Assembly (NCBI GenBank): GCA_019096065.1
Contig: JAGUCH010000002.1
Span: 13,962,501-14,026,500 of the forward strand
From: Paracyclopina nana
Taxonomy: Eukaryota; Arthropoda; Copepoda; Cyclopoida; Cyclopettidae
DNA length: 64,000 bases
Direction: 5' to 3'
In this document: positions 20,050 to 48,500 of the stretch, in pieces
Layout: every line of letters starts with the position of its first letter
Numbering within the stretch: position 1 is the stretch's first letter
Position numbers and translations under genes: made by a program
The notes under the pieces: generated by a model
What the model saw: the letters and a program-made list of their open reading frames with translations, nothing else
Told to the model about the DNA's origin: nothing
The model's database searches: none

Positions 20050-21601
20050 ATGATGATCAAAACTAAATCTCCCATGATGATCCGGAGGAACGTTTGCATC
20101 AAGGCCAGCCTTGCGTTGAACTTCTGCGTCCTCATCTACTTGGCTTTGCAAGTCTTTGAGCCTATGCATCATCATAATGAACAAACGAATGGGAACGTCG
20201 AGCCTCAATTTTCCTCCTCTTCGCTAGTAGAGAGATCCCTCAATTCCATTCAAGAGATCAACAATACTGTTCAACCCACTGAGTTGGCAGTGCTACCAAG
20301 AAAGCCAATCCAATGCTATGAGAAGGACATGGAGCCGAAAAAGGCCATGCGGGGCCAATATTGGGTGTTGTACAACTACGTCCCAGCCAAGAATCGGTTG
20401 AAGTGCAACGAAACTGTGACTTACACCACACATTGTGATCACACCTTCCTTGACAATGTGGTACCTTTGGTCAAGCGGTGGCAAGGGCCGATTTCGGTGG
20501 CTCTTTACACGCCAGGATCGGACTATGACGATGCCCTCAAAGCCATAAGTTATTACAGGTGCCCATACCAAATAATTAATTAAATGAATCGACGGTTTTA
20601 ATGCTGTGTAATGCCATTTTTAGGAACTGCGTGAATGACTCGAAACTCGTGCGTGATTACGTAACATTCCATATGTTCTTCCCCTACAAGCATCGGCCCA
20701 AAGGCACGGTTTTGGACGCTGAGGCAGCCAGCCTCTACAAGGTGGATTGCAGCCAGCCTCCACCCACCTCTGAAAATACTTATAGAAAAATCCATTCAAT
20801 GACCTATCCTGTCAACGTTGGGCGAAACATAGCGCGAGAGAGTGCCAACTCCCACTACATTTTCCCCTCGGATATTGAACTGTACCCCAATCCTGGCCTC
20901 ATTCCAGCCTTCCTTGACATGGTCACCCGTGGTGATCAGGAGGAGGCCCTGAAAAGGCCCAATCCGAGGTTGTTCGTTAGCTCGATTTTCGAAATCCAAG
21001 AGGGGCATGAGCTTCCGGAGACAAAGGAGGAGCTGCTCAACCTGCTCAGCTCGAATGTTGTGATACCATTCCATAAGATGGTGTGTAGCCAGTGTCATGC
21101 CATTCCCAAGGCCAAGGAGTGGAGGGAAGACCCTCTCACAGGTAATGGCTATTAATTCACATCTTACTTATGAGACTCATAACGGTCGTATTCCAGATGA
21201 GCTACACGTGTTCCACATTGGAAAAAGGAACCCACCGTACCAGCATTGGGAACCCATTTACATAGGTACCCATGCTGATCCTCTGTACGACGAGAGGCTC
21301 TCTTGGGAAGGCAGATCCGACAAAATGACTCAGGTTACTACTCCCATCATTAGACTAAGTGTATATGGCATCTTAGTAACACGCTTCCTTTTTTTAGGGG
21401 TATCAACTGTGTGTGATGGACTACGATTTCATGATCTTGAACAACGCTTTTCTCATTCACCGTCCAGGCATCAAGACATTCAAGAAAAATGACAAGAGCG
21501 TAGATAAGGCCAAGGTGGCAGCTCAGAACGACTTTATTAGGAAAATTATCATGCCTGAACTGAAGCAACTCTATGGATCCAAGAAAGGATGTGAAAAATG
21601 A
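20050..21601 (+). CDS. GT49 glycosyltransferase, B4GAT1-like, copy 1
   Basis: Exons 20050-20558, 20624-21141, 21197-21333 and 21398-21601 join in frame to 455 aa. An N-terminal membrane anchor (about residues 17-37, LALNFCVLIYLAL) gives a type II topology. The conserved blocks are YVTFHMFFPY, YPVNVGRNIARESA, HYIFPSDIELYP, the C-rich CSQCHAIP, HWEPIYIGTHADPLYDER and YDFMILNNAFLIHRPGIK. SDIEL is the DxE-like metal site. This set matches beta-1,4-glucuronyltransferase 1 (B4GAT1) and the LARGE C-terminal domain, enzymes that build the matriglycan primer on alpha-dystroglycan. Arthropods and nematodes carry several such paralogues, so direct orthology is not claimed. A paralogue follows 143 bp downstream. 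Confidence 0.88.
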
Positions 21602-21744
21602 TGAATCTCTATATGTCTATATTGATAAAAATACAACTTTGGCTGTGACCCTTGACAGAAAAGCAGTATTGATTCACGTTATGTGTTTACTTGCATGTCG
21701 TCTCCTGGGTGACTACTTCACTAAGTAGAAAGTTGCTTTTAGCC

Positions 21745-23177
21745 ATGAAGTGCCTCAAGGCTAATGCATGTTGCCTCTTGAGGCTGAGCCTCTTGGCTTT
21801 CATACCCTTTTTTTGTTACGTCGTCTTTTTGATGGTCAGCAACGAGGACATTCTTGCTCAATATGTCTACATCAAGCCTGAAATTGTGAAAATCATCAAT
21901 GAGACCTCCATCAGTGGCAATGTCATATTGAAGAGCTGCCTTGGAAGGACTAATACCTGGTCCTCAGTGAAGAGAAAAGCCGCCAGAGCTGGCAACTTTT
22001 GGGTGCTCTACAACCAATACAAAGCCAAAAAAAGGTTTGAGTGCCTGGATTCCATCACATACACTACTCATGGCGAATTTAAGTTTTTGGAAAATCTTGT
22101 GCCACTCTTGGAAAGATGGCATGGCCCTTTGTCCATTGCAGTTTACGCTCCTGGAGAAGGTAACATATATTTGCACCCAAGTAGTAGCCTTTTCTGATTC
22201 AACTTCTTAGATTATGCCAGGGCTGTCAAGGTGATTGAGTACTACCAGAGATGCACAGAGAAAAGCTACTTGGTGGCTGACTACGTCACCTTTCACATTT
22301 TCTTCCCAATGGATCACATGCCAGCCAACTTGACAGTGGCATTCTCCTGTAATGACCTTTTAGAGGATCCTGTTGAATGGACAAGCTACAGAGCTGAACA
22401 GAAACTTGATTACCCAATCAATGTGGCTAGAATGATTGCTCGCGAGACTGCTACCACACACTTCATATTTGCCTCTGACATTGAGCTCTACCCTAGCCCC
22501 AAATTGATCCCGATGTTTCTGAGCATGATCAGGTCTGCTCAGATCCCCGCTAAGACAGTCTTTGTCACGCCAATTTTTGAGATAGTAGCTAACCAAAATT
22601 TGCCAAAGAGCAAGAAGGAGCTAGTTTTAATGATTCATGGCAAAGTTGCCATAGTGTTTCACCAGAATTTTTGCCCTGAATGTCACACTGTACCTTTCTT
22701 CCAAGAGTGGCTCCTTGACGCTTCCATTGAAGGTAATTTGGAGGTATACTGTGAAAATATGCCAATGATTATTTTTGCACGTTGCAGGTAATTTAAGCAT
22801 TTTCCAGACTGCCAAAAGGAGGGGCCATTGGGAGCCAATCTACATTGGCACTAATGAGGATCCTCCCTATGATGAGAGACTCACGTGGGAGGGCAGAGCT
22901 GACAAAATGACTCAAGTATGATAACTATTCATCAATTATTATGGCAATTGTAACTAAGGAATAATTTTAGGGCTATTTGATGTGTGCTCTAGACTACAAC
23001 TTTGCCATCCTCAATAATGCTTTCTTGGTGCACAAGCCAGGCATCAAGACCAAACATGATAATAGCAAAGCAACGAATGCCAAAAAAGTGGCTAATCAGA
23101 CAGCTTTCATCAGAGGTAACTTGATGCCTCAACTCAAAACATTATATGGGATCCATTCACATTGCAGTGCAGTTTAG
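21745..23177 (+). CDS. GT49 glycosyltransferase, B4GAT1-like, copy 2
   Basis: Exons 21745-22159, 22211-22732, 22788-22915 and 22971-23177 join in frame to 423 aa. The start is the ATG at 21745, giving MKCLKANACCLLRL and then a strong membrane segment. Conserved blocks parallel copy 1: YVTFHIFFPMDHMP, YPINVARMIARETA, HFIFASDIELYP, HWEPIYIGTNEDPPYDER and YNFAILNNAFLVHKPGIK. The two copies are clearly old duplicates. The first intron is at a different site: copy 2 is interrupted before DYAR, whereas copy 1 is interrupted about 14 codons later, after SYYR. The last two introns are shared. Copy 2 lacks part of the loop between FFP and YP(V/I)NV. The function is as for copy 1. Confidence 0.87.
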
Positions 23178-23870: not shown

Positions 23871-24659
23871 TCAGAGGTCATACCCATATTCTTGGATCCA
23901 GCCAAGGCCTGCATTAGTGTCATTGCCCTCAGGGATGTATTCTAGGCCAATCCAACCTTGATACTTGAGCTGTTCCAAATGCTGGAGCACAAACTTGTAG
24001 CTGATCTCCCCAGCTGAGTTGGGCTCATGCCTATCTGGAACTTGAGCAATTTGGACATGTCCTGTGGTGGGCATTAATTTGCTCATGTAGTTGCTCAAGT
24101 TGCCATGCAAGAATTGCAAGTGAAAAATATCCAGCATCAGCCTTAGGTTCGGATGGTTGATTTCCTCAATGATCTTCTGAGCAAGGTTGAAATCATTCAG
24201 AAAGTAGTTGGGCACCCACACTGGATTGATTGGTTCAATCACCCCAATAATGCCAGCCTTCTCCAGCAAAGGCAATGCCTTCATCAAGTTGTCCTTGAGG
24301 ACTTTTTCAGACCCTGTCACTTGGTCACTCACCTTACCAGACATGATGTGGAGCCTTTTACAGTTCAAGGCCTGACAATAGTCAATTGATTTTTGCAGAC
24401 TCTCCATGAATTGAGTCTGCTGATTATCAAGAGCTGCAAATCCAAGGCTGGCTCCAGGATAGGTGTTGATGAGCACTTGCTCCAGGCCAAGGCTGTCTTT
24501 GACAGCTGCAATCTCTTCCTTTGGAATGTCATAGGGAAATGCGCATTCAACTGCTTTGAAACCTGCTGTTTTGGCCAGAGCATACCTCTCAAGCAATGAA
24601 GAGGTCTCCTTAGTGTACATTGTGGTCAAGTTGGCACAAAACCTTAATTTGCCAGCCAT
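23871..24659 (-). CDS. HYI: putative hydroxypyruvate isomerase
   Basis: A single exon of 262 aa, about the usual length for the family. It is a TIM-barrel sugar isomerase of the Hyi type, interconverting hydroxypyruvate and tartronate semialdehyde. Visible family blocks are LRFCANLTTMY at the start, VECAFPYD, GVIEPIN with the metal-binding Glu at 142, LMLDIFHLQ, HVQIAQVPDRHEP and the second catalytic Glu in GLEYIPEG. The metazoan role is poorly known. It is the last of four close same-strand genes: the ITFG2 stop is 130 nt upstream, and an acceptor-like CTGCAG ends 10 nt before the ATG. Confidence 0.93.
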   Translation of the reverse strand: MAGKLRFCANLTTMYTKETSSLLERYALAKTAGFKAVECAFPYDIPKEEIAAVKDSLGLEQVLINTYPGASLGFAALDNQQTQFMESLQKSIDYCQALNCKRLHIMSGKVSDQVTGSEKVLKDNLMKALPLLEKAGIIGVIEPINPVWVPNYFLNDFNLAQKIIEEINHPNLRLMLDIFHLQFLHGNLSNYMSKLMPTTGHVQIAQVPDRHEPNSAGEISYKFVLQHLEQLKYQGWIGLEYIPEGNDTNAGLGWIQEYGYDL

Positions 24660-24789
24660 AGTGTGAAGCCTGCAGTTAGCTCAAATAGTGTTGTTCTACA
24701 AACTTGTTGGCTTTTTTATCTGCAAAGCTGGCCAGGGTTATCAAGTACAGAGGCAAAGTGGCTTTTTTCAGGCACTTTTTATTTCATTT
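24660..24789 (-). promoter_or_regulatory. ITFG2-HYI intercistronic spacer
   Basis: On the minus strand an AATAAA poly(A) signal occurs within about 15 nt of the ITFG2 stop codon. About 100 nt later CTGCAG ends a splice-acceptor-like stretch, leaving a 10-nt leader before the HYI ATG. This is the arrangement expected of an operon spacer resolved by trans-splicing. A compact ordinary promoter plus 5'-UTR intron would be the alternative. Confidence 0.45.
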
Positions 24790-26157
24790 CTATCCATATA
24801 AAAGTTTTGACACTTGGATTGGACTAAGAGCTTGGCCATTCAGCGATAAGGATGACTTTGTCAATTGTCTCCCTAAAAAATCATTACAGCATACTAGGAT
24901 ATTTTGTTGCATAGATAAGTACTTACTCTCATAGTCAGTCACTTTGTAGTAGACATGGACCATCTCATTGAAAGTAGCAAATATCAGTATTGGGGTTGAT
25001 TTGTCTTGGATTGTCATCAGCCCACAAGAAAAGGCTGTGATGTCCTCATCAAAATGAAAAGTTGACACATCGCCATTTTGATTTATCACAAAAGTCTATG
25101 AAATGAAGCATGGGAAGGTGATAATAAAATTTCTTCCCCCCCTTTGAATTAAATTTTTTACCTTTCCTTCCCACGATGAGATCAAAAGTTCATCTTTCCC
25201 ATCCAAGTTGATGTCCAACTTCCTAAGGCTAAAGAGGTGCCCATCAAGCTAAAAATCAAATGATTTCATTTTCGTGAAGGCTAATAATTTTTATGATAGC
25301 ACCTTTCTGGTCCAGACTACTTGATCATCCTTCATGTAAGCCACAGTGCCATCACTGCCTGCCAAGGCTAGTTCAGAGCCATTGCCATCAGGATTCTTGA
25401 GCATGGTCACGATTTCAGGAGTAGCTTCAGCCATCATCTCCTCCTCAAGCATATTGATGGTATTGAGACCATAACTTTGAAATTGCTGCATTTTCAAATT
25501 GATCTTGTGGTACAATCCTCCAGGATGTGTGACAAGAAGATCGAGGTCATCTCCAACTTGGCAGACAGCAGCTCCGCCAATTTGGTTTCCAAATTCCCAT
25601 TTTTTGAGAGCACTCAATTCACCCACCAAGTCGGTTTCCTCAGTAGAGGAAGTTGTGAATTTTCTGAACTGGTAAGTTCTGACAACCCTGTCAGTGAGAG
25701 TGACAATCAACTCATGTAGGCCATCGCCATTGACATCTCCAATTTCAGCCTTTTGGATATTGGGCGGAAGTCTCTGATAGAAACAATGCAAAAGAACTTT
25801 TTTCTTTGGCTTTTCCTCAGCCCCTTCTTCTTGTTCCTCCATTTCCTCCTCTTCTTCATCTACATAGTCCTTGAAGTTGAACACTTTGCAATGGCCATCT
25901 GCAGAGATGACTACGAGGACATTTTCACCGCGATTGAACAAGTCACCACAAGCTACAGCTGTCACATGTCCCAGCTTCTCCAAGATTCTCCAGGGGTCAG
26001 GATTGAGACCTTTGTACACGTGCAAGGTCCCTAAAGAGCTGCCAATGCAAAGCTCAAACTCGTTGTCATTGTCCACGTCTGAGCAACAAATTGAATTGGA
26101 CAACACTTGTCCAGGTATTTCAATTGTCATGCGATCTATAAAGGCCACGTGGTCCAT
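24790..26157 (-). CDS. ITFG2: ITFG2, KICSTOR complex subunit
   Basis: Exons 26157-25303, 25248-25162, 25095-24927 and 24872-24790 join in frame to 397 aa. FG-GAP-like beta-propeller blades show as CCSDVDNDNEFELCIGSSLG, IGDVNGDGLHELIV, DINLDGKDELLIS and TFVINQNGDVSTFHFDEDI. TDRVVRTY and SALKKWEF match human ITFG2 closely. The family protein is part of KICSTOR (with KPTN, SZT2 and C12orf66), which tethers GATOR1 to lysosomes to restrain mTORC1 when amino acids are scarce. An acidic insert (DEEEEEMEEQEEG) lies near residue 100. The ATG is only 8 nt downstream of the IMMP2L stop on the same strand, leaving no room for a separate promoter. Confidence 0.93.
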
Positions 26158-26165
26158 GGTGACTA

Positions 26166-26793
26166 CTATTTGGTTGAGGTTGACACGACTAAAGTTCCGC
26201 TAAAGGGCTTTTCTTCAGCATGCAGGGTTTTCCAGTTTTTCCAGGGGTACAGCACGTGCGTGGCCTTTCCAAAAATGAGCCCCACAGGAATGACACCGTA
26301 CTTAATAGAGTCCTCTGACTTTTTTGAGTTGTCGCCCTCTACCCAGCAGTGGCCCTTGGGAATGACAACTGGGTTGGCAGAGTGCTTGGAATTGGCTATG
26401 ATATCTCCTTCTAATCCAATCAGCCTTTTAATCACAAACTTTTGCGGATCTGAATTGACAAACTTTGATATAAAAAGAAAAGTAATTGAGAAATTTAATA
26501 TCTTACCTGAATGAGAGATGAAAACTACTATGTCGCCTCTTTTCAAAGGCTCATTATGGAAAGCCCATCTGTTAACGAAAACCCAATCTGAAGTTCTTAA
26601 AGTTGGTCTCATGGAAGACCCTTCAACTTGAGATAGGTAGCCTAGAATATCTCATGAAATAAACTTAAATACATAAAACCAAATGTCAAACGGTACCAGT
26701 GAAGTAGAATAGAGTATTGGCAACGGATACAGTCACAATCGAGGTTTTGACAACGTTAAATGCAAACCTAAGCAGACTCCTGTAGGAAGTCAT
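26166..26793 (-). CDS. IMMP2L: mitochondrial inner membrane peptidase subunit 2
   Basis: Exons 26793-26697, 26641-26507 and 26449-26166 join in frame to 171 aa. It is an S26-family signal peptidase of the inner mitochondrial membrane. An N-terminal membrane segment is followed by the catalytic Ser in VEGSSMRPTL and the catalytic Lys in FVIKRLIGLEGD. The GHCWVEGDN and YGVIPVGLI boxes follow, then ATHVLYPWKNWKTL, which aligns with the IMMP2L tail (ATHILWPPERWQKL). The family matures proteins such as cytochrome c1. Its ATG shares its first base with the last base of the upstream paralogue's stop codon (TAATG, 26791-26795), and its own stop is 8 nt before ITFG2. Confidence 0.93.
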
Positions 26794-27341
26794 TAATCCA
26801 ACTTTCCAATTCGATGCAAGGGGAAAACGACTGCAACCACCTCACCTATTGTTAAAAAAAATGAATAATTTTATGATACGATTGCTTGGTGATAAACGCA
26901 CCTTTGATGGCCTCGCAGGGGACGTACCCAAAAATATTGGAATCGTAAAAAGCCTTAGTGGAGTTGTCAGCATCACTTTCAATCCAGCAATTGGCTCCTC
27001 TTTCAACTTTAAGCAACCTTTTCACCAATTTACGTTCCCTCTTGTGAGCAACTACGACTTTGCCGACCAAGCTGTCAACGCTTTTGTTCTTGCTAATAAG
27101 AACAATATCTCTAAATGAAGAGCCTTCAGGATTCAAGGTTGGTCTCATAGACGGACCTAAGCAAGACAAAATTGTGTAAGCAATAATTAATACTAGCAAA
27201 GAAGCAAGTCGCACCTTCAACCATACAAAAGGAAAATGATTGCTTGAGCCTTAGCTGGAGGAGAAACGTAGCCAGGAATCCAGATGAGAAGCCCAGAATG
27301 AAGACTTGCTTTCGGCTCACCAGATGTTTGAAAAATGACAT
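26793..27341 (-). CDS. divergent IMMP-type peptidase paralogue
   Basis: Exons 27341-27215, 27156-26902 and 26845-26793 join in frame to 144 aa; the 53-nt last exon ends in a TAA that overlaps the next ATG. The membrane anchor is VFILGFSSGFLATFLL. The catalytic Ser is kept in VEGPSMRPTLNPEGSS and the Lys in KLVKRLLKVERG. The later box reads CWIESDADNS, where the family has WVEGDN, and the tail is short (VVAVVFPLHRIGKLD). The region after Ser resembles IMMP2L (SLNPGGS), so it is probably a fast-evolving tandem duplicate rather than IMMP1L, but IMMP1L cannot be excluded. TTGCCTAG ends directly at the ATG, so the start is preceded immediately by an acceptor-like AG. Confidence 0.85.
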
Positions 27342-27708
27342 CTAGGCAAGCGTCATCCGGAAAAATGTCAACGAACTGGCCAAATATGTCGCCCAATACA
27401 AGTTTTATGTTTGTTTTTGTTTTAGCATTAGCTTTATCAGTGAGCTAACCCACAACATTTGGGGCAGATTTGAACTAAAGTCAGCCATTTTTATAAGCCA
27501 ATTTTGCGCAAAATGTCTGGAAGCCTTTTAGAGTCATGCAAAAATTATTCAGAGAATAACGTTACACTTATCAACAAAAAAAAGAAAGAAAGAGAGAGAG
27601 AAAGGAAATCGTAACAGTAGTTGAGTTTAGCTTACGTGATGATCCGATTCTTTTTTTAATCCGCGAAAATCGTATCTTTCAAAACAAAGCATCGAAAGTA
27701 ACACAGTC
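27342..27708. promoter_or_regulatory. divergent promoter spacer, IMMP paralogue / RNASEH2C
   Basis: This 367-bp gap separates divergent starts and must hold both promoters. A purine GAAA/GA-rich run lies at about 27579-27607. No TATA box is clear. Confidence 0.45.
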
Positions 27709-28122
27709 ATGTCAACTTTGATCAAAGGCTCGCTTCTATCTCCTGCTTTGGAAAAAGAGAGTGAGGAGCCGCATTTTCTACAATTCGTCCCAGCCAAGAT
27801 CAAAAGTAACAACGAGAAGGCCAAAGTGAAGCCTTTTTTCAACGACTATATCATAGAAAGCCAGTCTGGTGAGCTATCCACTATACTCCGAGGCCGGCCA
27901 CTGAATGGAAAAGTGCGAGAGCTGGGGCATTTAAAAGCTGCTGTAATGAAGATGCCCAAAATCGCCTCGAACGAAGACAACGATGAAGTTAGGTGTCATC
28001 CAATTGCTGTGTGTGACAAGATGACTGTATGGAATTACGACTTACCGAGTGATAAAGGCGCAGATCCTCTCTCTAAAGCTCTTACATATGCCAAAATGGC
28101 TGCCATCATGAATAAAGAATGA
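27709..28122 (+). CDS. RNASEH2C: ribonuclease H2 subunit C
   Basis: A single exon of 137 aa. The match to RNASEH2C rests on FLQFVPAKI near the N-terminus, FFNDYI, the LRGRPLNGK block (human FRGRCLRGE), and the C-terminal MTVWNYDLPSDKGADPLSKA followed by Tyr-Ala-Lys-Met-Ala-Ala. The subunit forms a scaffold dimer with RNASEH2B that supports the catalytic RNASEH2A. The complex removes ribonucleotides from DNA and degrades RNA:DNA hybrids in the nucleus. It is transcribed away from the minus-strand IMMP/ITFG2/HYI cluster. AATAAA-like sequence overlaps the end. Confidence 0.87.
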   Translation: MSTLIKGSLLSPALEKESEEPHFLQFVPAKIKSNNEKAKVKPFFNDYIIESQSGELSTILRGRPLNGKVRELGHLKAAVMKMPKIASNEDNDEVRCHPIAVCDKMTVWNYDLPSDKGADPLSKALTYAKMAAIMNKE

Positions 28123-29211: not shown

Positions 29212-31441
29212 ATGTCCGACGTATACAATCCACCGCTGAGGATTCAGTCCAAGTCCAATTGTGGATCTATGGAAGATTACCATGCAAAGTACAAGGAGTC
29301 CATAGAAGACCCCTTCTCTTTTTGGGGCTCCATTGCCAAGGAATTCCGCTGGAACGTCGAGCCCACCAAGGAGGACTTTTGCAGCTATAATTTCGATGTG
29401 AACAAGGGACCAATCCGCATAGAATGGATGAAAAATGCCAAATTGAACATTTGCTTCAACGCTCTTGATCGCCACTTGGACAAGAGGGCCGATCAGGTGG
29501 CTTTCCATTGGGAGGGCAATGATCCCAAGGATGCTGGAAAAATCACCTATGCTGAGCTGCACAGGGATGTCTGCAAATTTGCTAATGCTCTCAAGTCCAA
29601 GGGCATAAAGAAGGTGCCACTTAAGACGGAGACTGCAAAATAAAAAGATTTAAGATTCATGCTTGCAGGGCGACCGAGTAGCCATCTACATGCCCATGAT
29701 CACCGAGTTGGTGGTAGCAATGTTGGCCTGTGCCAGGATTGGAGCCATACACTCCATAATTTTCGGAGGCTACAGTGCAGAGTCCCTGTCCTCCAGGATC
29801 CTTGATGCCAAGGCCAAGGTTTTGGTCACATCTGATGGAGTGTGGCGAGGCCAAAAGCTGATTCACTTGCTTGAAATCGCAGCAGAGGCCTTGGCCATGA
29901 CCAAGGAGAAGGGACATGAGGTCGAGGTGAATTTTGTCGTGTGTCACCTGCCCAGGCTGAGTGAAACTGCACCTGACTATGACAAGACCATCAACCGCAT
30001 TTTCGACGAGTCCAGAGATATTTGGTACATAATTATTAACAGTTTTAGTTAGCGTGAAATCATGATAGTTCCATTAAGGTGGCATGATGCTATGAAGAGT
30101 GCATCAGATGAATGCGAGGTGGAGTGGTTGGAGGCAGAAGATCCACTGTTTATGCTCTACACCTCCGGATCAACTGGAGTCCCCAAGGGAGTGCTCCACA
30201 CTCAAGCTGGCTACATGCTCTACGCAGCCACAACCTTCAAGTATTCCTTTGATTTCCACGAGAACGACGTTTACTGGTGCACTGCAGACATTGGGTGGAT
30301 CACTGGCCATACCTACGTCACTTATGGGCCTTTACTGAACGGAGCTACCTCCGTCATTTTCGAGGGGACTCCCTTCTACCCAGACAATGACAGGTACTAC
30401 GCAAACGACTCATGGTTAATGCAATAGTATCTGATTGGTAGTTGCCAATAGGTTTTGGAAAGTCATCGAAAAGTACCGAGTTTCCAAGTTCTACACAGCT
30501 CCAACAGCCATCAGAGCCCTCATGAAGTTTGGCGAGGCTTTCGTGGACAAGTACGACTTGAGCAGCCTCGAAGTCCTGGGCACTGTGGGGGAGCCAATCA
30601 ATCCAGAGGCCTGGATATGGTACCATAAGTACGTGGGAGGCGAAAAGTGCTCCATCGTGGACACGTACTGGCAAACCGAAACTGGAGGTCATGTCATGAC
30701 TCCATTGCCAGGCTGCACCCCCACCAAACCCGGGTCAGCCTGCTTCCCCTTTTTCGGAGTCCTTCCAGTCATCCTGGACGACGATGGCAAGGAGATGGAC
30801 GGAGAAGCTGAAGGCTACATAGCATTCAAGAAGCCTTGGCCTGGAATCATGAGGACAGTGTATGGCAACCATCAGAGGTTCGAGGAGACGTACTTCAGCA
30901 AATTCCCAGGATTTTACATGAGCGGCGATGGAGCGAAACGAGATGCTGATGGCTACATTTGGATCACTGGCAGGGTCGATGACATGCTCAACTGTTCGGG
31001 GCACTTGATGTCCACTGCTCAAGTGGAGTCGTGTCTGGTGGAACATCCGCATGTGGCAGAGGCTGCAGTTGTGGCAGCTCCACACAAGGTCAAGGGTGAA
31101 TGTCTCTACTGCTTTGTCACGCCTAAGGACGGCTACCACGTGGATGCAAAGGTGGTCAATGAGCTGAAGCAGCTGGTACGTGACAAGATAGCTCCATTTG
31201 CCATGCCAGACTACATTCAGGTAACAATGGCCTTGTACAATGCCAAACATTTAGTAGTAACATGTGAATCGGATTGCAGGAGGCTCCCAATTTGCCCAAG
31301 ACTCGTTCTGGCAAGATCATGAGACGCGTATTAAGGCAAATCGCCAAAGATGGAGACGAATTCGGTGACATATCAACCCTTGCTGATCCTGGCATTGTGG
31401 CCATTCTTCAGGAGGGGCATAGAGCCATGTTCAAAAAGTAG
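29212..31441 (+). CDS. ACSS2: acetyl-CoA synthetase
   Basis: Exons 29212-29613, 29669-30024, 30079-30393, 30452-31220 and 31280-31441 join in frame to 667 aa, close to the 670-700 usual for the family. It makes acetyl-CoA from acetate, ATP and CoA by way of acetyl-AMP. Motifs in order are the N-terminal FWGSIAKEF block, the P-loop [18 protein letters not shown]-type region [54 protein letters not shown] and [15 protein letters not shown], whose GK Lys is the catalytic lysine regulated by acetylation. No mitochondrial presequence is visible (start [12 protein letters not shown]), so the nucleo-cytosolic form is expected. The tail faces that of CAB39, with about 250 bp between the stops. Confidence 0.97.
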
Positions 31442-43107: not shown

Positions 43108-45274
43108 ATGGACAGGCTTGCTAAAATAATCATTGGTCTGGCATTGATCACAATTTGCTGCGGTCAAATTATGCCTACAGTTAAGAGGTGCTGTCGCGAA
43201 GGCTTTTTGAACAGTGAGACAAAAAAGTGCCAACAAGGAGATATTGGAGCTAAATTGGGCTTTGATATACCGCTAAACATAACAGGAGTTGAAATGCCTA
43301 GTTGCAAGCCAGGATTTGGTTTGAGAATTTTACGAAACAACTTCTATTCCATTGAGGAGTTTTCAATTCAGCAAATTCAAGACTCCCCAGAAGCCTTGAT
43401 CCTGGACCTTGAACATTTTGAGTTCAACTCTGAATTCTGTATTGAGAATAACCCTTCTGATGCGGACGAGATCCTAGCTATGTATTGCCAACGTCAGTTC
43501 GACTGCAACATCAATCCTTGCTTGAGATTTTGCTGCTATCCAGGACAAGTCATGGTCAATGACACATGCGTTGCCAGTGATGATGAAATGCCTGAACAGG
43601 ACTCAAATGTCAAGCACTTCTACGGAATTCCAAGCAATTGCACTCATCTAATAGAGGCTGGGAAAAATTTCACAAAACATGATATGAATGAGATCGTGGA
43701 GACAGTTCAGAACATGAATCTGAATGAGTATTGCGTGATGGCAATGCCCGATAAAACATCAACCCTGCAAGTGTGTCATGTCCAAGAAGAAGTGTCAGCG
43801 TTCAAAGATTTCGCCACCAGAGCCATTGCCATTGCAATGATAGCTTCTATGTTTTTCCTAACTTTGAGCTTCACTCATGTGTGGGCTTACAACAAGGAAA
43901 AGCTGTTTGGAGCAATGACCATGAACATGATCGCCATGTTTTTCATATACTTCCTTGCAAGCATTACAATCAATTTTGCCCCCTTAACTGACTCTCAATG
44001 CGAGGGGTTTGCTTACTTGATGCAATGGGTCTACCTATCAGCCATGTGGTGGCTCAATTCCCTTTGCTTTGACATCTGGCAAACATTTAGAGCCATAAAA
44101 GCTTCAACAGGTCAACAATCCGGACATCAGTTTGGCTGGCAGCATTCTAAATTCAAATCTTATGCCATGTGGTCTTATGGAATTCCTGCCCTGATAACCT
44201 TGGTGACATTTTGCATTGAAAAGTTCTTCAATAACTATGCTGGGACTCTTCTGCATCCTGGCATTGGACAAGTAAGCAGTCATGATTTAAAAATTGATTT
44301 CGCTTTGGAAATGCAATTTAAAATTCATTACTTTCAGGATAGCTGCTTTTTGAGCAAGGAAGGCACATTGCTATATATTATAGCGCCAAGCCTGCCTATC
44401 CTGATCTCAAACCTCATATTTTTTGCATCAACTACATGGAAATTATGCTGTGGCATCTGGGCAGATGAGCAGGCCTCCCATTTGGCTAATGTCATCAACA
44501 GAGCACACTGCACAACTAAAATATTTGCTGCAGCGGGAATTGCATGGATTGCAGAGGCAATTTCATGGCTCATTTTCTACTTTAACCAAGACCATGAGGA
44601 GGTCATTCTGCAAGTAAGATTTTTCACACAAAAAGCTTACCTGAATTTGCGTAATCCCACGTGTCCCGCTTGTTATCGCCCTTTCGTAAATTAGAGCACA
44701 AACAATCACAACTTGAAATCACGCTTCCAGAATTTCACCACAACAATTTCACGCACTTTTTTTCACCGGTGTCACCCGCTCGTTTGCTTTGAAAGTACTG
44801 AGAAGATGAGCTGAGCAAATCGGGTTTTTGTACGAAGTCTCAGTTGCGGCTAGAGCAGTGGAGAAAAACAGTAGCAATTGAGCTGATTGATTTGATATTT
44901 TGGCTTTTAAGACTCTACGCAGCATTTTTGGGCATGTATGCTTTTCAGTGCGCGTAGAAATACTTTTTTTTTAATTTCAGGCCTCATTTGCTTTGGATCT
45001 TTTTAATAGCCTCCAAGGGCTAACACTATTTCTGGCGATTGCATTGGACAAACCCATCTGTACTAAAATCAAATGTAAAATTGCGAGCTTTTTCAACAGC
45101 CAAGAAGGAGACAGAGGTGATACAATGACTTTGAAAGAGTTTTGGAACTCCATCACTGGAAGATCAGTTAGAATTTATTCGTTAGATCAAAATCACATGC
45201 CAATTGATGTGGTAACAACATCATCATTAGATAAACCAATGTCATTCAGGCAAAACTCTTTTGAAAATTGCTAA
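43108..45274 (+). CDS. Methuselah-like class B-type GPCR
   Basis: Exons 43108-44271, 44338-44613 and 44981-45274 join in frame to 577 aa. The frame is open further upstream to 42976, but ATG 43108 directly begins a signal peptide (KIIIGLALITICCGQ). The ectodomain has the Cys pattern of Mth proteins: KRCCREGFLNSETKKC, FCIE, CLRFCCYPGQV and CHVQEE before the first helix. Seven hydrophobic helices follow, including AIAIAMIASMFFLTLSF, YLSAMWWLNSLCFDIWQTF and the last before the Lys-rich tail. WLNSLCFDIW in helix 3 is typical. Methuselah receptors are known from arthropods and affect stress resistance and lifespan in Drosophila. The ligand is unknown. The first intron (66 bp) is in frame and free of stops. 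AATAAA overlaps the end at 45275. Confidence 0.92.
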
Positions 45275-45436
45275 ATAAATCGACTTTGACACAGGTAGTA
45301 TGCTTTCTAATTCTCCATGGGTTGAAATGCGTGCTTGGAATTGAAAAACTCCTAGACAGGTACAGAACAAGCGCAAAATGCTAGAAAGCTGTTAAAATTG
45401 TACCTGGATAAAGATGGCATTAGGTTTTTGAAAACA

Positions 45437-45598
45437 ATGGCATTAAGCAATGCAAGACTAAAAGAATATGTTGCCAACTTTCTGTTGCTTGGTCTAGTTA
45501 TTCTTACTTGGGCATATGCAATTGTTGCAGGCAAGTTTGTATCAGAAAGACATTTACACACTCTGAATTTGGAAGAAAGATCACTCAGGGATAGTTAA
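45437..45598 (+). CDS. small single-pass membrane protein ORF, 53 aa
   Basis: ATG 45437 opens 53 codons ending in TAA at 45596-45598, one base before the CC2D2A ATG. A clear hydrophobic helix (FLLLGLVILTWAYAIVAG) is flanked by a basic N-side and a charged C-side (LNLEERSLRDS). The frame stays open upstream to about 45360, beyond an AG (CTAGACAG). That stretch encodes plausible residues (ARKLLKLYLDKDGIRFLKT), so this may be the last exon of a longer small protein. I recognise no family. With only one base before CC2D2A it would share a transcript with it; it could instead be an upstream ORF of that gene. Confidence 0.5.
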   Translation: MALSNARLKEYVANFLLLGLVILTWAYAIVAGKFVSERHLHTLNLEERSLRDS

Positions 45599-45599
45599 A

Positions 45600-48500
45600 A
45601 TGAGTAGTGCATATCCAGAGGCTATTGAGGCTAATGTGACAGTAGAAAATCCTCATGATGAAGACATCATTGAGATACCTGAGCTAGGCAAGGCTGTTTC
45701 ATGGTCAGAATCTGAGAAACCAAAGGGAATCAGAAGGCCATCAGTTTTGGAAAGGGCTAGGAGTAAAACATCAAGAGAGGAGAACAGTTCTGTGGATGAA
45801 GATGAAGAAGAAGAGCCATCTGATGATAATGATGACATCAAGCCTCTGGAAGATCAAAAGAGATCCATTTCCAGCTTGGGAAGCTCAAAAAGGCCCTCGT
45901 TTACCAAGCAGACATCAAGGTTGAGTTATTACCAACATAATCAGTTTTTAAATCTAATTTACTTCTTCTGGTTCTCAAGGTATGAAGATAGGTTAAGAAG
46001 CGAAGACTTAGCTGTTCAAGCTGCTTATGAAAAGAGAAAGGAGAGTAAAAAGAGTTCGCATACAACAGAAAAGCTCAAATTGCCAAGAAAGCCAACAAAC
46101 CTGCAACCAACTTTAGAGGAGGCTTATGATTTTTTCACAAAAGTGGACTGGGGCCCTGAGGATGAGGTGAGATATCTTTTTCAAGGATTTTATTTGAAGT
46201 AAATAATTCTAAAATGTTTGTTATCAGGAAAAGTTCAAGAGGAAGCAGGAATCAATTGATTGTGAAACCAAAGGTATGGAGGCTACTGAAGAATCAGAAC
46301 TAGGCAAAGATGGAGACAAAAAGAAACTTTTACCATCCTCTCATTACATTGGTGACAAGTATCTTTGGGATATGACTGAAAAATCATTTCCTTTCATGTC
46401 CAACAAAGAAGCTGACAATATTTGCTTCGTTCCCTCTGACAGAGTTGACATAGAACAAAAGCTTGGTACAGATAAGCAACCGAGGTTTCTTGAAGATGAA
46501 GGGATGTACATTGGTGCAATCCCATCCATCAAACCAAAGAACCAAAATAAGGTAGAGCAGAGGATTTTACTTGAACAGGCAGCCAATCCTGACCTCAACT
46601 CAAAGTGGTTTGGGTCTGATGGGAAATTAGTTGCATTACCAACCCCAATTCTTCGAAAAGCAACTAGACCTGCCTATCTGGATGATGATTTGACACATGA
46701 GCCATTGACTTATTTTTGCCCCCCAACATTGCCTGGCCCAGATGGGCTTCCAATGCCTATTAATCCTTCAGGAAAGGTGTCTAGCATCACACAGTGCCAG
46801 CTTGAGGTTGATTTGTCATCCATTGTCTTTGAGCATCATCACTTGTTTTCCCTTGAACATTACTTGACCAACAAACTTGTTAATGCATATGTGACTTACA
46901 GTAAAGTCAAATCTGCTCAGGCATCAAAGGACCTTGAACAAAGACTTGATGTTCTATATCAATCCGTCCATGAACTCAAAGAAAAGCAGCCTTTGTGGAA
47001 TGAGGATGAAAGGGACTTTCAGGGAAGAAGACTACAAACATACAGAACAGAAATTAAAACCATTATAGAGGAAAGAGATGCTGATTGCAAACAAGAGAGA
47101 GAGCTCACCAGAACAGTGCTAGCATTATGGAAAGAAATCAGGGAAGTCAGAGCCAAGCAAGGCTTTCAAAATACCAGCCACAGAGTTGTCATCAAAAAGG
47201 AATCATCCAACCTACAGGCAGACAAGATGAAATGGAACTATGAAATTGACAGGGAATTGAAGGAAGCCAAAGAAGAATTTGAAGGCAATTTTCAGCAAAG
47301 ATTAGCTCAATATGAAAAAGACTTAGAGCAATGGAAATTTATGCATAGTAAGTTTTTCTTCTTGATCTTAATTGAGCCTTTCCAAAATACTACTTCTTTT
47401 TTAGATAGGAGGAGAGATGCAAGGAAAAGACAAAAACAGAGGCAGAAGGATGCTGAGAGAGGGAGTGGAACAGCTGATGCCAATGAAATGGCTGATGATG
47501 AGGCACTCTTGGCAGATCAGGAGTCTGAGAAGCCTGAAAAGCCAACTCATTTCAATGATGAAGATTACAAAAAGCAGATTGAAAAGCGCTATTTTGAGTG
47601 CAGAAGAGCACCTGGGGAGCCAAAACTTCACCTAGACCTTTTACAAACTATGACCACAGGAAGCAATGGTGCCCAGGACATACATGACAACAGAGAGCTT
47701 AACCGGCGAAATGCTGTATCAAAAACAAAGATCTTTGCAAGAATATTTTTCAATGGCAAAGAAGTCTGCCAAAGCACTTCAAGGAGTATGCCACAAGACT
47801 TTATTGTACAGTTGGGCCAAATCTTTCCCATACAAATTGTGCAATTGCCAGAAACTTTGACTCTTCAAATTATTGAAGGTGGAACTTTGAAATCACATAT
47901 TATTTCAGAAGTCAAGCTTCCTCTCTGTGAACCCACAAAAGCTTTGTCTGACAGTAATCTTGAGCCGATTGAGTTTAAATGTGACTCTAAGTTCCAACAT
48001 GATCATGCTGGGTTGGGGTCAGGCATTAACTTTCCAATCAATCTTGATGGAAGTAAAATTAGCAATGAACCCACCAAGGGAAAGTTATTTGCTAGGGTTG
48101 GATGGGCTAGAGGAGCAAATGGACAATTACTTGCCCCTCCCTTTGACCAATGGCGTCCCAGGCATGACAAAAGGTAAAAGCTAACTGAAGCTTAGCTACA
48201 AGTAGCTGAAGAAACTTTTATAGGATGGATCCCTTGCATGAGGTTATGGAGCCAGATGGTAAAATTGATCCAGCAAAGTTAGAAGAATGGATGGCAAAAG
48301 CCAGGCTAGATCCCAATGACCCTGAAAATGAGGAATTATTCAACAAGTATATCTCTTGAAAATTGTTAGATATCATTTGAAATGTGCTCTTTTCTAGGGT
48401 TAATGAGGCAAGAAGAAGAGCTGATATGAGCACTATTTCATCAATTGAAGGCACATCCAAGCTTAGCCATGTGACCTCAACTGGATATTTTAGGCTAGAT

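Follow-up and report, generated by a model that had tools for sequence, protein, structure and literature searches.

An operon-like cluster of four closely packed genes, among them IMMP2L, ITFG2 and HYI, in the copepod Paracyclopina nana, with a candidate trans-splice acceptor at HYI

Operons of Caenorhabditis elegans are laid out with an AATAAA just past the stop codon. In the tunicates Ciona intestinalis and Oikopleura dioica, operons consist of tight same-strand genes, in Ciona often without an intercistronic region, and one spliced leader (SL) serves these and monocistronic genes as well, with distance cut-offs of 84 and 60 bp in use (PMC7986045, in the parts drawn on here). Chaetognath operons, as described in the consulted sections of PMC12460157, hold genes less than 250 bp apart, are resolved by trans-splicing and have been validated on RNA. 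Crustacean trans-splicing is known from CopepodSL, which goes with short 5′ untranslated regions (UTRs) (Yang et al. 2015, PMC4664967); in the sections of that paper considered here no SL was found in cyclopoid or harpacticoid data, leaders of their own in these copepods were left undecided and the word operon is not used. As of 2021 operons and polycistronic mRNAs were unreported in copepods, amphipods and other SL-using groups, according to the part of PMC7986045 considered, and no paper on crustacean operons was evident by title or start of abstract among the literature matches listed. Here we describe a cluster of four genes, namely gene A, IMMP2L, ITFG2 and HYI, in the cyclopoid copepod Paracyclopina nana. 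It lies in a window of 64,000 nt, by which we mean the whole stretch of DNA that was analysed (positions 13962501-14026500 of C2, in an assembly of 10 contigs and 92 Mb).

Reconstruction by hand placed the genes head to tail on the minus strand in the order gene A, IMMP2L, ITFG2 and HYI with successive gaps of -1, 8 and 130 nt, which bore out the strand, coordinates and gaps given in a sequence-only reading of the same DNA. Four mostly unrelated genes are arranged almost end to end in an operon-like manner, in a compact genome, and gaps of -1 and 8 nt exclude a promoter for IMMP2L or ITFG2 outside coding sequence, as had been argued in that reading. All 7 introns of the cluster are GT-AG introns of 54-66 nt. 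Splice acceptors were scored with a profile trained on 170 predicted short introns of the same genome, and percentiles below rank a site among all AGs of a sample of about 259 kb from that genome. The features of the cluster are as follows.

27342-27708, no strand: interval of 367 nt between the divergent starts of gene A (minus) and an RNase H2 subunit C-like gene (plus), candidate promoter
26793-27341, minus strand: gene A, a divergent extra IMMP2L-like peptidase S26 of 144 aa; exons 27341-27215, 27156-26902 and 26845-26793
26846-26847, minus strand: AG of the last intron of gene A (TTCATTTTTTTTAACAATAG), 98.5th percentile
26793, minus strand: TAATG overlap, one base common to the gene A stop and the IMMP2L start
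26166-26793, minus strand: IMMP2L, 171 aa; exons 26793-26697, 26641-26507 and 26449-26166
26158-26165, minus strand: gap of 8 nt between IMMP2L and ITFG2
24790-26157, minus strand: ITFG2, a KICSTOR subunit of 397 aa; exons 26157-25303, 25248-25162, 25095-24927 and 24872-24790
24778-24783, minus strand: AATAAA 6 nt past the ITFG2 stop, the only one on the transcribed strand from 27341 to 23871
24670-24671, minus strand: candidate trans-splice acceptor AG (GAGCTAACTGCAG), 10 nt before the HYI ATG, 95.6th percentile
23871-24659, minus strand: HYI, hydroxypyruvate isomerase-like, 262 aa, intronless

The identities proposed earlier for the last three genes were upheld by Pfam, by solved structures in the case of ITFG2 and by homologues. 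IMMP2L matches PF10502 (E 2e-23), and the single species named among its relatives is a fungus. The first exon of ITFG2 matches PF15907 (E 5e-41) and the ITFG2 chains of solved KICSTOR structures (E 1e-51); its start, CACCATGG, stands in a strong context 8 nt past the end of IMMP2L, its 3′ end was set by relatives with the C-terminus ...LSPHTVSRLLYR, and the two relatives that carry a species name are both decapod crustaceans. HYI matches PF01261 (E 2e-43) and 1311 proteins; among the 120 of these that were listed, the named ones are mainly hydroxypyruvate isomerases and come mostly from insects, with Eurytemora, Artemia, a millipede, springtails and one brachiopod also represented. Gene A matches PF10502 at E 6e-4, under Pfam's cut-off, and has 31% identity to IMMP2L across 120 aa (E 8e-7, from a search of a small database). 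By eye it has a Ser motif, SMRPTL, and a KR motif, and its middle segment is shortened. This similarity suggests that gene A arose from IMMP2L by an old tandem duplication and has since diverged. IMMP1L was rejected as its identity, as genes that we take from reading to be IMMP1L-like and SEC11-like lie on C9 and C7, respectively. An ab initio gene finder fuses the four cluster genes into one or two models, which is taken as an effect of their tight packing.

AGs 0, 8 and 10 nt before the ATGs of gene A, ITFG2 and HYI had previously been pointed out as acceptor-like. All three are present, but those at gene A (13.8th percentile) and ITFG2 (34.0th percentile, and part of the IMMP2L stop codon) do not resemble acceptors, and of the three only the AG at HYI exceeds ready chance expectation. 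No ATG separates the AG of the last intron of gene A from the IMMP2L ATG, which is 52 nt further on, and this AG is a possible shared cis/trans acceptor; were it used in trans, the IMMP2L ATG would become the first AUG. The best acceptor score in the 70 nt upstream of the ITFG2 start is 2.4, at 55 nt. The cluster therefore holds one good junction (ITFG2-HYI), one possible shared site (IMMP2L) and one junction without any (ITFG2).

We lean slightly towards reading the four genes as a polycistronic unit that would be resolved, at least at HYI, by trans-splicing. Transcription would start in the interval 27342-27708, likely the promoter of the four-gene unit, and would give one polycistronic pre-mRNA. 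This would be cut after ITFG2, and a short leader exon would be joined in trans to HYI at 24670/24669, as at other tight pairs described below. IMMP2L would be freed by trans use of the last acceptor of gene A (26846), and ITFG2 would either use a weak acceptor within IMMP2L or be translated from an mRNA shared with IMMP2L. The leader RNA would be one so far undescribed. Co-transcription, the leader and its use are what we infer from the anatomy and the splice-site statistics, which were observed directly. Tight same-strand genes are common to this cluster and tunicate operons, whereas here there is an 8-nt junction without an acceptor, no SL is known and the host is an arthropod and not a chordate.

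Polyadenylation signals bear on a different account, in which gene A, IMMP2L and ITFG2, or the latter two, are translated from one polycistronic mRNA by reinitiation at the TAATG and across the 8-nt gap, with no trans-splicing at all. The dicistronic genes of Drosophila are a precedent for one mRNA that encodes two proteins. Consistent with this, neither AATAAA nor ATTAAA occurs within 150 nt past the stops of gene A and IMMP2L, a single AATAAA follows ITFG2, no acceptor is found near the ITFG2 start, and by the usual rule the AUG context is weak at gene A and IMMP2L and strong at ITFG2. Against it, two ATTAAA within IMMP2L, at 26499 and 26432, could serve gene A, and the missing signals are common, since AATAAA follows within 150 nt of the stop in 11 of 34 other predicted genes and two thirds of them thus lack it. 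Reinitiation past open reading frames as long as those of gene A and IMMP2L (435 and 516 nt) is, moreover, inefficient, and the acceptors at other tight pairs are left unexplained. We therefore hold this account to be improbable as a full explanation; a shared IMMP2L-ITFG2 mRNA as such can be accommodated by a trans-spliced unit.

A possible IMMP2L-ITFG2 contig in another species is a hint of a shared mRNA and also counts in favour of the polycistronic unit. The matched proteins P0138 (IMMP2L, 50% identity) and P0006 (ITFG2, 42-43%) have long unbroken frames, both genes being intron-bearing here, and they are of the same source type, each listing 5023 nt as its longest contig. If this contig is one and the same, a distant species may show the two genes in linkage, perhaps at the RNA level. 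No match with a 5023-nt contig was found for HYI among the 120 of 1311 matches listed.

Gene spacing was evaluated over 104 kb of contiguous sequence. A self-trained gene finder, with the models of the cluster corrected by hand, gave 41 genes of at least 100 codons. Tandem gaps (n=18) were -1, 8, 33, 36, 86, 97 and 130 nt and then at least 225 nt; they form two classes, with 7 of the 18 at or below 130 nt and none at 131-224 nt. Convergent gaps spanned 58-397 nt (n=11) and divergent gaps 104-4328 nt (n=11), and predicted introns were mostly short (median 63 nt). The short convergent gaps fit a genome that is compact in general and has no operons, in which small promoters would lie inside upstream genes. 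The existence of two tandem classes, one of them far under most divergent gaps, argues against such a genome.

Outside the cluster, five tight pairs, each joining unrelated genes, have a pyrimidine-rich tract and AG before the second ATG, one of these sites being recognised by its tract only. DARS2 is followed by a WDR89-like gene after a 36-nt gap that is mostly pyrimidine tract and CAGCAG, a ZZZ3-like gene by one for a CHHC zinc-finger (GTSF-like) protein, and a DHX15-like gene by one for a protein without a Pfam match; domains here are from Pfam, and the orthologue names DARS2, WDR89-like, ZZZ3-like, GTSF-like and DHX15-like are our assumption, as are WDR33 and ABHD16 in the remaining two junctions.

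L007:2650-2743: WDR33-SAP30 junction, gap of 94 nt by hand reading, acceptor 14 nt before the ATG, 99.7th percentile
L055:1204-1139: ABHD16-like-aminotransferase junction, gap of 66 nt, acceptor 1 nt before the ATG, 99.2th percentile

SAP30 matches PF13866 (E 6e-21). The sequences before the five second genes are CTCTTTTTTGTTTCAGCAG, CCTTCCTTTTTTTCTGCAG, CCCCCTCCCTACTTAG, CTCCTCTTTTTTTCCAG and GCTGTTTTATTTCAG, 1-14 nt from the ATG, and 4 of the 5 tracts reach at least the 98.5th percentile of the cis-acceptor profile. Owing to a C-rich tract, the acceptor of the DHX15 neighbour ranks no higher than the 74.5th percentile. At DHX15 and its neighbour, as at ITFG2-HYI, AATAAA stands 5-6 nt after the stop of the first gene, and an acceptor-like site then precedes the next ATG at short range; this order and gaps of about 100 nt are shared with C. 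elegans operons. In contrast to C. elegans, there is no sign here of a second, operon-specific leader, and gene A, IMMP2L and ITFG2 follow one another without an intercistronic region.

Sites of this kind were counted with two tests, each covering the 20 nt before a predicted start. The profile test required an acceptor score of at least 5. Under the main gene-finder setting this was true of 3 of 6 tight second genes, compared with 8 of 67 among other starts and 6.1% among random windows (p 0.04 by Fisher's and 0.004 by the binomial test). Under two settings that split genes more freely the counts were 5/12 versus 9/71 and 5/20 versus 6/67; profile-test counts include unchecked tight pairs (L005, L046, L047, L069 and L070), some of which resemble internal splits and are not relied on beyond these counts, and many internal exons are in the list of tight starts. 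The tract test required at least 14 pyrimidines out of 16 followed by YAG and was passed by 3 of 7 tight junctions, none of 33 other starts and 0.63% of random windows (Fisher p 0.0035). A further pair, with a gap of 33 nt at 43108-45600, is counted in the gap list and in both tests; its gene ends are doubtful and no acceptor was found there. On the plus strand at these positions stands a gene for a receptor of Methuselah-like type (match to PF06652 at E 8e-4, under the cut-off). A 79-aa transmembrane-like frame without a Pfam match comes next and then, no more than a few hundred nt on, a further gene; these may form one more unit, whose borders are doubtful.

The tracts could also be acceptors of ordinary cis-splicing. 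Long introns in the 5′ UTR would then run from the promoter of the first gene past that gene, or some of the pairs would be single genes. The acceptors do resemble the cis acceptors of the genome, and an acetyl-CoA synthetase-like gene (ACSS, a name assigned by reading) at 29212 on the plus strand has a like signal (97.9th percentile, 11 nt ahead of the ATG) although no gene lies closer upstream than 1089 nt; this may mark either an intron in the 5′ UTR or trans-splicing of a single gene. Such splicing would, however, have to recur at many unrelated pairs in a genome where introns are mostly short, and we regard it as very unlikely.

With the pairs checked by hand, 5 of 8 second genes reach the profile threshold (HYI, WDR89, GTSF, SAP30 and aminotransferase; p 0.003 versus other starts) and IMMP2L, ITFG2 and the DHX15 neighbour stay under it within 20 nt, in a set that was partly picked after looking and omits the pair at 43108-45600. 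This selection weighs against a trans-spliced polycistronic unit, and so do the points that follow. WDR33-SAP30 and ABHD16-like-aminotransferase were chosen from lists partly sorted by acceptor; the gene finder extends WDR33 by a small final exon to 6 nt before SAP30, leaving that border less sure, and the latter pair is fused in 2 of 3 finder settings and separated by 66 nt in the third. Within the cluster, the scan found a good acceptor near the ATG at HYI only and none at ITFG2, the pyrimidine tract at HYI is poor (9/16), and neither AATAAA nor ATTAAA occurs in the 150 nt after the HYI stop. Overall, tandem gaps show no shortening relative to divergent (Mann-Whitney p 0.20) or convergent ones (p 0.94). 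ATG was not enriched downstream of strong acceptors in a bulk test of low power. Other starts have an acceptor at 0-20 nt in 8 of 67 cases as compared to 3/67 at 40-60 nt and 5/67 at 80-100 nt, an excess too small to suggest that most genes carry a leader. The linkage of IMMP2L and ITFG2 elsewhere hangs on the single figure of 5023 nt. The sample as a whole comprised about 259 kb of 92 Mb, with a self-trained gene finder and with thresholds that were fixed after looking. Lastly, the known copepod leaders fared no better than controls in the genome: the first 18 nt of calanoid CopepodSL (46-nt exon) had 2 sites at 2 mismatches as compared to 6 for the reversed control, and the first 20 nt of the caligid leader had 3 sites at 3 mismatches as compared to 9.

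An operon-free compact genome, with the tracts as initiator-type (TCT-like) elements or chance, is favoured by these two unmatched leaders and by the missing ATG excess after acceptors. It is disfavoured by the five tracts, which all end in YAG (as the tract test requires) and of which four have the high percentiles given above. All in all we consider such a genome unlikely, if not to be dismissed lightly.

Further traces of a leader RNA were sought. The hairpin common to published copepod leader types occurs at 38 sites as compared to 2 for the reversed control, an excess that may reflect base composition as the control holds CG pairs. These sites were rejected as a multi-copy leader family, being scattered with differing middle bases, except for two that lie 66 nt from each other on C8 and for a GCTT-type repeat present three times. 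An SL linked to 5S rDNA was looked for in the pieces read of two array types and no leader was recognised in these. The 5S rDNA arrays themselves are of two kinds (C1:913544-939931 and C1:1277459-1285895; L012-L040), with units of about 471 bp in the first and about 347 bp in the other. Those units of the first array that were read contain an additional 5S-like copy, which has diverged, and the array is broken by a retroelement-like insertion. No exact match to an 18S primer site was found in the 10 contigs. The U1/U2 promoter element, a short YTCAA near -58 only, was too weak to serve as a handle for SL genes. Genes for spliceosomal or nucleolar RNAs form small clusters of U2, U5 and U1 (overlap of L067 and L076), of U2 with U4 and U5, and of U1 with U3 (L069, L079).

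The operon-like character claimed in the sequence-only reading is thus supported by the anatomy of the cluster and by other tight pairs with strong 3′ splice sites, whereas SL trans-splicing stays at the level of inference and the search proposed for an SL RNA gene yielded no match of the calanoid or caligid leader starts above reversed controls. Tentatively, and with somewhat less confidence than for the cluster itself, we suggest that operons may occur genome-wide, their transcripts being divided by trans-splicing of a leader that has no relation to those known from copepods, and may include zero-gap junctions (IMMP2L-ITFG2 and gene A-IMMP2L) that would use an acceptor inside the upstream gene or a shared mRNA. 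Such a system would be like CopepodSL in being crustacean trans-splicing with short 5′ UTRs and would differ in the start of its leader, and it would share close gene spacing with chaetognath operons, which belong to a different phylum. If this holds, arthropods would be one more animal group with SL-resolved operons, and the candidate pairs in a genome of 92 Mb make independent operon origins testable by RNA-seq.

The surroundings of the cluster were also annotated. Upstream of gene A and divergent from it lies the RNase H2 subunit C-like gene (27709-28122, plus strand, PF08615). On the other flank a plus-strand gene model ends near 23.2-23.8 kb with an unsure border. At 20053-22732 on the plus strand of the window, two adjoining and similar reading frames, beginning MMIKTK... 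and MKCLKAN..., are merged by the gene finder; these we presume to be tandem glycosyltransferase-like duplicates.

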